Of a stretch of 49,038 nt of DNA, positions 14,019 through 18,693 are shown piece after piece. The notes under the pieces were generated by a model. That model saw nothing but the letters and a program-made list of their open reading frames with translations. It did no database searches and was not told where the DNA came from. The first letter of the stretch is position 1. Every line of letters starts with the position of its first letter. Source of the DNA: an uncultured Bacteroidota bacterium (GTDB lineage: Bacteria > Bacteroidota > Bacteroidia > JABEUT01); NCBI GenBank assembly GCA_903863935.1, contig CAIPDV010000029.1:1-49038 (forward strand), given 5' to 3'. The position numbers were made by a program, and so were the translations under genes.

Positions 14019-15293
14019 TTGAACAGCGAAATACTGCAAGACATACCTCCTGACCTGATAAACTTCCTTTTGGTAGTTGTATTCTCATTATTAATAGGGC
14101 TTGAACAAAGGAGGCATCATATAAACGAGGCTACAGAAACATTATTCGGAACAGACAGGACATTTACTCTATTGGGTATTGCCGGGTTTATCCTATATAT
14201 AATAAGTCCTCAAAACCTCACTCCCTTTATTATAGGAGCAATTATTTTTGGCGGGTTATTGAGTGTTTTTTACTTTCAGAAGATAAAGATCCAGCAGAAA
14301 TTTGGAATGACGTCTCTGGTTACCGCTTTGATAACCTATTCTTTAGCACCTCTGGTATATACCCAGCCTAAATGGATGGTACTTTTAATTGTAGTAAGCA
14401 TCCTTATCATATCAGAGATAAAGGAAACCTTGCTTAATTTCTCGAAGAAATTCGATAACGATGAATTCATAACACTGGCTAAATTCCTTGTTCTGGCAGG
14501 TGTAATATTACCACTGCTGCCTAATGAACCTATTTCAGCTGTGCTGAACTTTTCCCCCTATAAGTTTTGGCTGGCTATTGTGGTAGTTTCAAGCATTTCC
14601 TATGTAAGTTACCTGCTTCGTAAGTTTGTTTTTCCCGACACGGGAATATTGCTGACAGGTATACTTGGCGGGTTATACAGTAGCACAGCTACCACCGTAA
14701 TTCTTGCCCGGAAGAGCAAAGAAAATGTTGCGGGGAATCGCATTATTGCTGCTATTTTTCTTGCTATTACAATGATGTATTTGCGGATTTTTATTTTGGC
14801 TGCATTCTTCAATATAGAAGTTGCAACCAGGCTTATACCTTATTTTGCTGTCCTTATATTAGTAAGCACATTAATTGCGGTTTATTTTAGCGTACTAAAA
14901 AAAACAATTATTGGAACTGGCAGTGAAGTTGTTGCAGCATCCAGTCACACCAATCCACTTGAGTTTAAGACATCCGTATTATTTGGCGGTCTGTTTATTT
15001 TATTTGCCGTTGTAACCGGATACGTGGTAGGCCATTATGGAGAACATGGAGCTAAAAACCTTGCTTTTGTGGTGGGAGTTACTGACATTGATCCCTTTAT
15101 CATCAACCTTTTTCAGGGCAAATGGAATTTGAGTGATTCGGTTATTTCACTTGCAGTGCTGAATGCAATAACAAGCAATAATGTATTGAAAATGATTTAT
15201 GCAATTACCCTTTCAAACAAAGCATTGAGGAAAGAAATCTTTGTTAGTTTTATGGTGCTGATTGTAGCAGGTATTATTGCCGTTATAGTTTAA
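14019..15293 (+). CDS. MgtC/SapB-type membrane protein with DUF4010 domain
   Basis: A 424-residue inner-membrane protein with about 12 predicted helices. The N-terminal part (about 15-145) carries the MgtC/SapB pattern FSLLIGLEQRR and FGTDRTFTLLGIAGF. The C-terminal part is a DUF4010 region with GILGGLYSSTATTVILARKS and GVTDIDPF motifs. The role is unproven; members have been linked to ion homeostasis or transport. The reading frame begins with TTG at 14019, and the first motif follows closely, so this start is plausible. It follows ppk2 on the same strand and may share its transcript. Confidence 0.8.
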   Translation: MNSEILQDIPPDLINFLLVVVFSLLIGLEQRRHHINEATETLFGTDRTFTLLGIAGFILYIISPQNLTPFIIGAIIFGGLLSVFYFQKIKIQQKFGMTSLVTALITYSLAPLVYTQPKWMVLLIVVSILIISEIKETLLNFSKKFDNDEFITLAKFLVLAGVILPLLPNEPISAVLNFSPYKFWLAIVVVSSISYVSYLLRKFVFPDTGILLTGILGGLYSSTATTVILARKSKENVAGNRIIAAIFLAITMMYLRIFILAAFFNIEVATRLIPYFAVLILVSTLIAVYFSVLKKTIIGTGSEVVAASSHTNPLEFKTSVLFGGLFILFAVVTGYVVGHYGEHGAKNLAFVVGVTDIDPFIINLFQGKWNLSDSVISLAVLNAITSNNVLKMIYAITLSNKALRKEIFVSFMVLIVAGIIAVIV

Positions 15294-16174
15294 TAGTATT
15301 CTATTTTCCGCTCTGTAATATACTCCGGCTTACCGTTCTCATAGTTTACTTCCTTAACGTAATTGCCCATTTTATCATATACATAAATATATTTGGAAGT
15401 ACGAGGTAATTTGCTGCGCTCTGTGTAGGTTTTCATTTCAATTTGGTTTCCGTTATAATCAAATTTTTTTGTGAATCTTCCAAAGCTTCCATTTCCATAA
15501 ACAATTGAGTCTTCAATTTCATTACCTGCACTGTCGTATTTAAAAACACTCATTCCGCTCACGCTATCAACTGGCCGGCAATTGGTTATTTTAGTAATAT
15601 TTCTTTTGTCATCATAAGTGTATAGAATCTTTTCAACAAAATTTATCCCCTTTTCATATTCGTCCTCTTCAATCATATTTCCCTTATCATCATATTTATA
15701 TATGACTTTAAAATCTAACCTTGTTATTTCAAAACCATAATCATAAACCTCAATCAACTTTCCATTACCATCATATTTATTTACCGATTTAGTTGCGAAG
15801 CCTTAATCCCGTTTTAAGCTGCCATCCTTGTTAAAGAATGGGTCATCATACATTTCTATTATTTTTCCATTTGCATCATACTTGTAATAGTGTGTATTAT
15901 TAATAGTGTCCCCTTTATAAAATCCATCACAGTCATATTCTGATTTCAGCAGTTCATTTCCAAGGCTGTCATACTTCCATAGAACTACATAATTAAGTTT
16001 TCCTTTAACGGTTTTTCCATCTTTCTGTTTTGCATAAAAACAATGCTCATACATGTATTTAACCTTCCCTTTCAGGCCTTTCCTTTTCAAGCTATTATCG
16101 CTCTTTTCCCACATAAATGAGAGAAAAATAAAGCCGGAAATTATTAGTATGGTTGAAATGAAAATCCTTTTCAT
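15290..16174 (-). pseudogene. Secreted YD-repeat (RHS-like) protein gene interrupted by an in-frame TAA
   Basis: The first part (16174-15803) encodes an N-terminal membrane or signal segment (MKRIFISTILIISGFIFLSF) followed by repeats of the type YDxxGN. It ends at TAA (15803-15805). The same frame continues without a shift as GFATKSVNKYDGNGKLIEVYDY and carries further repeats to the stop at 15290. The whole frame spans 295 codons with only this one internal stop. The repeat register is kept across it, so a single nonsense mutation (or a base-call error) is the simplest explanation. The second part could restart at the TTG at 15757. Function is unknown; the repeats resemble short wall-associated or toxin-shell YD repeats. 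Confidence 0.7.
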
Positions 16175-16251: not shown

Positions 16252-18693
16252 TCAGGTCCCGAACTTCAATTCTTTCTGTTCGGTTTCGGCAAGAATTAAT
16301 TTAATCTGGGTGATGGCATATTCAAGCCTGTCGAGCGTTTCGAAATAAGGAAATCCAAAACGTAAAATGTGATATTCCTGATCTCCGATTTTATGGTTTT
16401 TTATGCATTTGATATGTACCTGCCGATGATCTAAAGCTTTATATAATGGATATGGGTCAAAACTCTTAAACCCAACACTGATAAACGGGGCGTTCAGGGT
16501 AGTATTTAAAAACACATAATCTGATTTCGAACCAACAAACGCATCTGCCAGCTTCTTTTGAAACCAGTTTGCGAGCATAGCTGATCGCTGGAAAACTTTA
16601 TTTTTCCCCACGCTCTTATATAGCTTTAAAGACTCCAGAACAGCCGGATAGAGCATAAAATCCTGCCCACCGGGAATACTTATTGATTCCAAATCGGAGT
16701 CATTGGATATTCCATGTCCACTCCAGTAAAGTGATTGTATCCAGTTCTTGAATTTATTCTTCATCCAAATCAATCCGCCACCATGCGGGCCAAATAACCA
16801 TTTGTGTGTACTACCAACCAAAACGTCTGCATCGCCAAAAGGCAGATCCATTATGCCGAGAGATTGAGCAACATCAATAATAACTTTACAATCGGGAGCA
16901 AATCTTTTAAAGAGTTTAGCCCATTCTTCCGAAGGTGTTTTACTACCCGTATCATAGTAAACATGAGAAAAAAATGCAATATTGGGTTTGATATCCTCTA
17001 TTTTCTTTTTAAGTAGTTCTTTATCTTCAAGCGTCTTGTCATTCAGATAATGAACTTCATATTCAGGCATATTTTCAAAACAGCCTATGCCGCCCTGATG
17101 CTCATGTTCGGTGGTTATAATTCTATACGGCCCTTTACCTTCACTATGCAATACACGTAACATAGATAATGCTAAATGGTTCAGCGTTTGCGAGGTACTG
17201 TGCACTACCATTGAATGATATCCGGGAGAATTCCATAACTCATTGCATAATGTCTGTATTTCCTCCTGGCATATTCTTCCATATTCATACAGCCCTAGCG
17301 GATGTGCGTCAATTTCATCTGACTTTGCAGTAAAAATACGGGCATGTTTTACAGCCTCAGAAGGGGTTCCAAGAGTTCCGGGATTTAAATTAATACGTCT
17401 TGAATGGAAATTCTCTTTCCTGAATTTAGCCCAATATGCCTCATTGGTAATCTTTTCTTCTCCCTTTTCATCTATTAATATTCTGGTTTCTCCCAGTACC
17501 TTTTCTTTCATTTTCTCATCGTGCGCCCAGTTAATAATAGGCGGGAACACATTAAGAGAAACCCGGTCTTTATTATTTGCAATTAGCTTAAGGGTTTCCC
17601 TTATAATATCTATAAATGGAGAATGAACAATTTTTTCATCCAGGTAATCGGTATGTATCCCAAATTCCAGTTTCTTGTCAGGCCGTTCCATCCGCGGATC
17701 AAAAGCATCGTGCTTAATGGTAACTTTATACCCTTCCTGAAGGGCGATAAACTTCACAGCCTCCGCCAGTTCATTTATTGAGAAATCTGTTACGGTAACG
17801 TGGTTTATTACACGATGTTCAGCCGCTTTTGGAGCATCATCTGCCAAATTAGCCAATGAATTAACCGAATCTTTCAGGCACATTAAACCGGTCCGTTGTT
17901 TACCGGTTCCATATACCGAAAGCGGGTAGCCTACAACCGCTTGCGCTAAAAAGCGATTAAGTACCGTTCCAAAAGCTTCATCATAATCCAAACGTGTGCA
18001 AAGTTCAGGATGCCCCATAATCTCTTCGGTTACATTACCGAAAATAGTGGATTGCATTACATCCGTTATTTTAAGCCCCCATTTACGGCAAGCCATTGCA
18101 ACGTAATTGGTGTCATTTATCTTAGATACATGGTAAATATCATCCGCCTCGCGGGGAAATGGCATGGGTTTACTTGCTTTTTTACCTTTATATTCAGGTT
18201 CAAAATATCCTTCTGCAATATCAATACCCGACTTAGAATACTCGCCAAATGAGCCCAATTTAATAACATGGGCATCAGGCACATGCCTTTTTACTGACCA
18301 TAGCAGACGCATATTACCGGCCTCATTATTAATAAGGGTGAACATGGCTTCTTCCTCTCCTTTCATTGAATATGGAGCTGAGCATTGCTGGGCCAAATGA
18401 TAAATAATACCTGGCTTTTCCCGCTCAATAACCTCGTCAAGTGAAGTGCTATTAACATCCATATTTATATATTGAATGTTGCTTAATCCATGTACCTTTT
18501 TAAATGCAATAATTCGTTCTTCGGGAGTGGCAATAGGAATAATAGAATCAGAACCCTGACTTTTAACCACATTCCGTCTCCATTGATTATCAACAATGAT
18601 TATGTTACTGCTTGGATGCTTTACAGCCAGCCTCATTGAGAGGGGCCAGCCGAAATATCCGTCACCGCCCAGTATAAGGAATGTTTTGTACAA
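16252..18693 (-). CDS. Fusion of a UDP-sulfoquinovose-synthase-like domain and a class V PLP-dependent domain
   Basis: An 813-residue fusion. Residues 1-395 resemble SQD1-type short-chain dehydrogenases: GGDGYFG at 9-15 for NAD, the CSAPYSM loop near 104-110, the YHVSK catalytic pair (Tyr187, Lys191), the GSFGEYS loop with Ser148 where SQD1 has Thr, and the LDYDEAFGTVLNRF block. Residues about 430-805 form a class V aminotransferase/cysteine-desulfurase-like domain: NPGTLGTPSEA, the TTEHEH loop, Asp607 in IIDVAQS, and PLP-binding Lys631 in STHKW. SQD1 joins sulfite to UDP-glucose. Some class V enzymes (CsdA type) release sulfite from cysteine sulfinate, so the second domain might supply sulfite. 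That is inference; a sugar or amino-acid transaminase or an epimerase is possible. The start seems to be TTG at 18693, and no sulfolipid glycosyltransferase is nearby. Confidence 0.82.
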   Translation of the reverse strand: MYKTFLILGGDGYFGWPLSMRLAVKHPSSNIIIVDNQWRRNVVKSQGSDSIIPIATPEERIIAFKKVHGLSNIQYINMDVNSTSLDEVIEREKPGIIYHLAQQCSAPYSMKGEEEAMFTLINNEAGNMRLLWSVKRHVPDAHVIKLGSFGEYSKSGIDIAEGYFEPEYKGKKASKPMPFPREADDIYHVSKINDTNYVAMACRKWGLKITDVMQSTIFGNVTEEIMGHPELCTRLDYDEAFGTVLNRFLAQAVVGYPLSVYGTGKQRTGLMCLKDSVNSLANLADDAPKAAEHRVINHVTVTDFSINELAEAVKFIALQEGYKVTIKHDAFDPRMERPDKKLEFGIHTDYLDEKIVHSPFIDIIRETLKLIANNKDRVSLNVFPPIINWAHDEKMKEKVLGETRILIDEKGEEKITNEAYWAKFRKENFHSRRINLNPGTLGTPSEAVKHARIFTAKSDEIDAHPLGLYEYGRICQEEIQTLCNELWNSPGYHSMVVHSTSQTLNHLALSMLRVLHSEGKGPYRIITTEHEHQGGIGCFENMPEYEVHYLNDKTLEDKELLKKKIEDIKPNIAFFSHVYYDTGSKTPSEEWAKLFKRFAPDCKVIIDVAQSLGIMDLPFGDADVLVGSTHKWLFGPHGGGLIWMKNKFKNWIQSLYWSGHGISNDSDLESISIPGGQDFMLYPAVLESLKLYKSVGKNKVFQRSAMLANWFQKKLADAFVGSKSDYVFLNTTLNAPFISVGFKSFDPYPLYKALDHRQVHIKCIKNHKIGDQEYHILRFGFPYFETLDRLEYAITQIKLILAETEQKELKFGT

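Follow-up and report, generated by a model that had tools for sequence, protein, structure and literature searches.

An SQD1-like sugar domain fused to a class V PLP domain in a lake Bacteroidota bacterium, a possible sulfur-to-sugar enzyme

Introduction

Sulfite is the substrate of both the plant enzyme SQD1 and its archaeal homologue Agl3, and the route by which it reaches SQD1-type enzymes in vivo has been described as unknown (PMC4388408). A gene from a Bacteroidota bacterium living in a lake raises this question directly, as it encodes an SQD1-like domain and a class V PLP domain in a single polypeptide. The original prediction for this gene, made from the window (the whole 49,038-nucleotide stretch of DNA that was analyzed), was that the second domain is cysteine-desulfurase-like and could release sulfite from cysteine sulfinate straight into a sulfonated sugar. 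Does the fusion bring its own sulfur to a sugar, and if so, in what chemical form?

Results

The fusion gene lies at positions 16252 to 18693 on the minus strand of the window. Its reading frame, which opens with a TTG start codon, is uninterrupted and translates into one protein of 813 aa with two domains, so the coordinates and length originally given are correct. A SQD1-like NAD/nucleotide-sugar domain (residues 1-392, positions 17518 to 18693) is connected, via a linker (residues 393-430, positions 17404 to 17517), to a PLP domain of the Aminotran_5 type (residues 431-813, positions 16255 to 17403), all on the minus strand. The residues on which the prediction was built, namely the GGDGYFG motif, Ser148, Tyr187, Lys191 and the Lys631 of STHKW, are all found at the positions it named. 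A structure prediction for the full-length protein, based on a two-row alignment, is poor (pLDDT 38).

The original prediction proposed searching for the same fusion elsewhere, and it indeed recurs in a MAG of the same genus (G010, contig CAIWVW010000086.1), as a syntenic, full-length gene encoding 818 aa with 80% identity. Because the gene is intact in this independent MAG, it is not an assembly artefact. The DUF4010/MgtC and PPK2 genes downstream of the fusion are also kept in G010, with 79% and 77% identity respectively, so vertical inheritance at a constant position in the genome is the simplest account of the fusion gene. In the window, the fusion gene is separated from the DUF4010 gene by two small ORFs (positions 15290 to 16174), one of which matches an RHS repeat; no such ORFs lie there in G010. 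The window's own genome contains a second, truncated copy (G000:C98; L006 1728-3998), 88% identical over residues 1-726, which is located 20 bases past an IS66 transposase and whose 3' end is cut off and runs into unrelated sequence; either a paralogue in decay or a mis-binned contig would explain it. The TTG start and the first residues of the protein are identical across all three copies.

Both domains have been maintained by selection. Identity to the G010 protein is 83% in the SQD1-like domain and 78% in the PLP domain, and it drops to 67% in the part of the linker spanning residues 401-430, the least conserved segment of the fusion. Among the three copies, synonymous sites are saturated and dN is only 0.08-0.17 in both domains; wherever a dS estimate was obtained, dN/dS is ~0.03. 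This amounts to strong purifying selection on both domains and, together with the intact copy in G010, rules out an assembly artefact or read-through.

The fusion is rare. Outside the genus, none was found among ~790 draws, made up of 394 genomes from Bacteroidota and 395 from the class, and a wider scan of genome contigs produced a match only in G010. Phage records yielded no match, and on plasmids there are only stand-alone SQD1-like genes. In IMG/VR, 147 SQD1-like places were picked up by a profile scan, and 80 of them were kept for examination; none of these 80 loci encodes a PLP-domain homologue, fused to or beside the SQD1-like gene. A phage or plasmid origin of the fusion was rejected, as the plasmids and viral contigs sampled hold the SQD1-like gene in stand-alone form only. 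Since these searches are samples, the fusion can safely be called rare but not unique. We found no description of such a fusion in the open-access literature searched.

Sequence and structural comparisons bear out the SQD1-like nature of the N-terminal domain. The NCBIfam profile for UDP-sulfoquinovose synthase (NF041015) covers residues 5-341 (E 8e-101, 337.8 bits), and a PDB sequence search matches Arabidopsis SQD1 to residues 3-390 (E 4e-70). An AlphaFold model of the domain, produced with 45 aligned sequences (pLDDT 89, pTM 0.90), is highly similar to the SQD1 structure 1qrr in Foldseek (TM 0.94, rmsd 1.7, 35% identity), and thus displays the SDR fold of ~390 residues seen in SQD1, including its C-terminal sugar-binding part. 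The top Foldseek matches are three SQD1 structures, with target-normalised TM values of 0.93-0.94, and other NDP-sugar SDRs are listed at 0.67-0.84. The GxxGxxG motif and the Ser148/Tyr187/Lys191 triad are kept in all three copies, the catalytic YxxxK of SDRs corresponding to Tyr187-His-Val-Ser-Lys191 (positions 18121 to 18135, minus strand). His99 is kept as well. In common with SQD1 and Agl3, the domain has the GGDGYxGW motif, the Ser/Thr-Tyr-Lys triad, an equivalent of Agl3 His95, and the SAPYSM and LDYD..FGT..NRF motifs.

The active site nevertheless departs from that of known UDP-sulfoquinovose synthases. In Agl3, alanine mutants at His95, Arg101, Met145, Tyr182 and Lys186 are inactive, whereas T144A retains full activity (PMC4388408). 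The original prediction had pointed to Ser148 in place of the SQD1 Thr. The residue is there, but the substitution is trivial and carries no weight, because the T144A mutant of Agl3 is fully active. The prediction overlooked two replacements of residues essential in Agl3, which occur in all three copies. Cys104 (codon at positions 18382 to 18384, minus strand) occupies the position of Agl3 Arg101, and Phe149 that of Met145, which turns the [ST]MG signature of these synthases into SFG (Ser148-Phe149 codons at positions 18247 to 18252, minus strand). The Glu-Gln-Arg of SQD1 and Agl3 is Gln-Gln-Cys in the fusion, and their Ser180 is Asp185. A Cys at position 104 is not seen in any of 73 other SQD1-like proteins, of which 39 have Pro there, 33 have Arg and one has Ala. 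In a phylogenetic tree, the Arg-type proteins and AtSQD1 form one clade (support 100/98) outside which the fusion domain falls, and the NF041015 score of the domain is below the curated cut-off of 575 bits. The placement of the domain beside three T4-like phage proteins (L048, L052 and L070) was given no weight, the join being flagged as long-branch. The domain is SQD1-like, yet differs from UDP-sulfoquinovose synthases in three of the features tested (the Met of the [ST]MG signature, Arg101 and the NF041015 score). With two Agl3-essential residues replaced, its sugar chemistry may differ, and sulfite is not to be assumed as the nucleophile. The loss of these residues could even be taken to mean that catalysis by the sugar domain is impaired and that it instead serves the PLP enzyme in scaffolding, sensing or substrate binding. 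We consider this very improbable, since the triad, His99 and the glycine motif are kept and the two domains evolve equally slowly.

SQD1-like genes occur in other settings. A genome from another family of Bacteroidia (G450; L105 8985-10172) encodes a stand-alone, Arg-type SQD1, the picture of an ordinary, canonical one, within a polysaccharide gene cluster that also holds DegT-like aminotransferases, glycosyltransferases and an ABC exporter; a surface glycan containing sulfoquinovose may be its product. On viral contigs from IMG/VR (L023-L102), SQD1-like genes are common and many have Pro at the position of the essential Arg101. Some of them (e.g., L048 5998-7152 and L070 5998-7176) have a clamp loader and a PurC-like gene as neighbors, in T4-like phage replication regions. 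On a plasmid of Rhodobacteraceae M382 (L017 4992-8755), an SQD1-like gene is followed by a sulfotransferase and then by a PAPS reductase, which makes sulfite.

As for the PLP domain, Pfam Aminotran_5 covers residues 480-762 (E 8e-15, 55.2 bits versus a gathering threshold of 21.5). The domain keeps the Schiff-base lysine, Lys631 (codon at positions 16801 to 16803, minus strand), together with Asp607, Gln610, the stacking His532 and the carboxylate-binding Arg778. Its nearest solved structures, by sequence, are PvdN, Egt2 and C-DES, and cysteine desulfurases come after. With the desulfurases SufS, IscS and CsdA it shares the superfamily, Lys631 and the stacking His532, but it does not reach their family cut-offs and lacks the GHHC loop that bears the persulfide cysteine of SufS, the nearest cysteine in the alignment (Cys763) being about four residues off. 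The host's true SufS, with a GHHC loop, is encoded on another contig (C26), beside SufD. A canonical cysteine desulfurase is thus ruled out. The part of the original label that placed the domain among class V sulfur-handling enzymes stands, while "cysteine-desulfurase-like" is too restrictive, given the lack of the persulfide cysteine loop and the identity of the closest structures, PvdN, Egt2 and C-DES.

EgtE and Egt2, which are hercynylcysteine sulfoxide C-S lyases, and the cyst(e)ine lyase C-DES share the class V PLP fold, judged by sequence, and likewise have no persulfide-cysteine loop. Their Lys, Asp, Gln and carboxylate-binding Arg are matched in the fusion (in MsEgtE, Lys203, Asp180, Gln183 and Arg348 correspond to Lys631, Asp607, Gln610 and Arg778), and His532 is at the position of Tyr106 in EgtE. 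In contrast to these enzymes, the PLP domain here is joined to a sugar domain, and the similarity is weak (30-36 bits); for the EgtE family TIGR04343, the score is 34 bits against a cut-off of 400. The top single match, in both PDB and NCBIfam, is the pyoverdine-tailoring enzyme PvdN (38-41 bits), whose cut-off of 650 is far above the score of the fusion. PvdN is not known to be a C-S lyase. It is periplasmic and stand-alone, whereas the PLP domain of the fusion is C-terminal to the sugar domain and has no export signal of its own. The domain is ~20% identical to the host's class V proteins and attains no NCBIfam cut-off, and no further homologues were found to enlarge its alignment. A class V enzyme of the C-S-lyase type, with a predicted function, is the most fitting description.

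The resemblance to PvdN, and the catalytic versatility of class V folds, leave room for a PLP domain without sulfur chemistry. It would then be of PvdN type, or else an aminotransferase or epimerase, paired with an SQD1-like domain that works as an NDP-sugar epimerase or as a 5,6-dehydratase; the product would be a modified, perhaps amino, sugar, unless the fusion merely couples two steps. SQD1-like proteins of the Pro type, which are without Arg101, are common in phages and haloarchaea, and we know of no sulfite use by them. To our knowledge, however, sugar aminotransferases belong to the DegT/DnrJ family rather than to Aminotran_5, and the pattern of sulfur genes described below would have to be a coincidence. 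On balance a non-sulfur role is unlikely, but it stays a rival given the versatility of class V PLP enzymes and the uninformative neighborhood of the gene.

There are indeed no sugar or sulfur genes beside the fusion gene, and we recognized no glycosyltransferase or other sulfolipid genes in the window. This agrees with the original observation that the sulfolipid glycosyltransferase is not nearby, and a sulfolipid operon in the window was rejected on this ground. The sulfur-assimilation genes of the host are more telling. Neither of the two fusion-bearing genomes (98% and 96% complete) encodes the PAPS reductase CysH or sulfite reductase, PF01507 being represented by CysD only. In the window's genome, this single PF01507 protein lies beside CysN, and neither a NIR_SIR sulfite reductase nor a cysteine dioxygenase was found. 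By contrast, CysH and sulfite reductase are both present in two genomes of the genus without the fusion, G009 (99% complete) and G001 (84%), and CysH is also present in G003; CysH was assigned from sequence in G001 and G003, and in G009 by the length of a second PF01507 frame (230 aa). This pattern rests on three near-complete genomes, all of them MAGs, which makes the absences provisional. Across the genus, CysH and sulfite reductase are present or absent by species, whereas CysD is almost universal; in some species, PAPS may thus be used for sulfotransfer alone. As PAPS reductase and sulfite reductase are absent, the ordinary sulfite supply looks absent from the fusion-bearing genomes. The pattern is consistent with an enzyme that is its own supplier of organic sulfur, and an organic donor is plausible. 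The idea of a sulfur supply in situ thus fits these genomes, unlike the cysteine sulfinate proposed as its source, since the absence of a cysteine dioxygenase argues against cysteine sulfinate made by the known dioxygenase.

Discussion

The explanation that we favor, with a probability of about 0.45, is that the fusion is a bifunctional sulfur-to-sugar enzyme. Its PLP domain would release the sulfur of a cysteine-type donor, to be placed on C6 of a nucleotide sugar. The SQD1-like domain would bind NAD+ and an NDP-hexose, probably UDP-glucose, oxidize C4 and eliminate the C6 hydroxyl, generating a 4-keto-5,6-ene as in SQD1 and Agl3. In the PLP domain, Lys631 would form an aldimine with a cysteine-type amino acid, the Cβ-S bond of which would be broken by β-elimination. 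The sulfur, originating from this organic donor and not from sulfate assimilation, would end up on C6 of the sugar, after which C4 would be reduced. It could arrive as sulfite, giving sulfoquinovose, or at the thiol level, giving a 6-thio sugar. Both activities, the channelling between them and the product are inferred, whereas the fusion, its folds and residue sets, its conservation and selection, and the missing sulfite-supply genes were observed. The replacement of Arg101 and Met145, the weak match of the PLP domain to C-S lyases and the lack of informative neighbors count against this explanation.

The two forms of sulfur can be weighed against each other. If the PLP domain freed sulfite from cysteine sulfinate or cysteate, the SQD1-like domain could convert it to UDP-sulfoquinovose. 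SQD1 and Agl3 use sulfite, no inorganic source of which was found in the fusion-bearing genomes, and a persulfide cysteine is not required for class V enzymes to desulfinate cysteine sulfinate. On the M382 plasmid, an SQD1 homologue lies near a sulfite-producing PAPS reductase. Against this stand Cys and Phe in place of the Agl3-essential Arg101 and Met145, a score of 338 bits versus a cut-off of 575, a position outside the Arg-type clade and a genome in which no cysteine dioxygenase was found, and we regard the sulfite route as distinctly unlikely. The original interpretation is upheld in its SQD1 fold, its sulfur-handling class V domain and its fit to the missing sulfite-supply genes, but not in sulfite as the nucleophile or cysteine sulfinate as the source.

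The change from Arg to Cys in the sugar domain suggests that thiol chemistry would be at least as likely. Cysteine, or a persulfide on Cys104, might add to C6 of the 4-keto-5,6-ene, and the PLP domain would then split the cysteine conjugate into pyruvate, ammonia and an NDP-6-thio-sugar. Addition of a thiol to such an ene is chemically natural, cysteine needs no extra oxidation, no cysteine dioxygenase was found, an anion-suited Arg has given way to a Cys seen in 0/73 homologues, and the nearest relatives of the PLP domain are C-S lyases that, like it, are without the persulfide-cysteine loop. An enzyme that attaches cysteine to C6 of a 5,6-ene nucleotide sugar is not known to us. A functional precedent for the cleavage, by analogy, would be LmbF of the lincomycin pathway, a PLP enzyme by which a thio-sugar is released from S-glycosyl-cysteine (PMC11794154). 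The likeness is one of function only, β-elimination on a sugar-bound cysteine. LmbF is stand-alone, acts on the S-glycosyl-cysteine of a thiooctose instead of a nucleotide sugar, and is not among the listed sequence matches of the PLP domain. The thiol route, which we reason from chemistry, is also unlikely when taken in this specific form. Bolder still, and quite improbable, would be a new type of enzyme that makes a 6-thio (or cysteinyl) nucleotide sugar within one polypeptide, cysteine or a Cys104 persulfide replacing sulfite and the PLP domain freeing the thiol, in a host without sulfate reduction.

The bifunctional sulfur-to-sugar reading gives the fusion its wider interest. A sugar enzyme joined to a probable sulfur-mobilizing PLP enzyme makes the question of sulfite delivery directly testable. 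Kept by selection in genomes apparently without sulfate reduction, the fusion suggests a self-contained machine for placing sulfur on a sugar, and it may reveal a sulfur sugar new to Bacteroidota.
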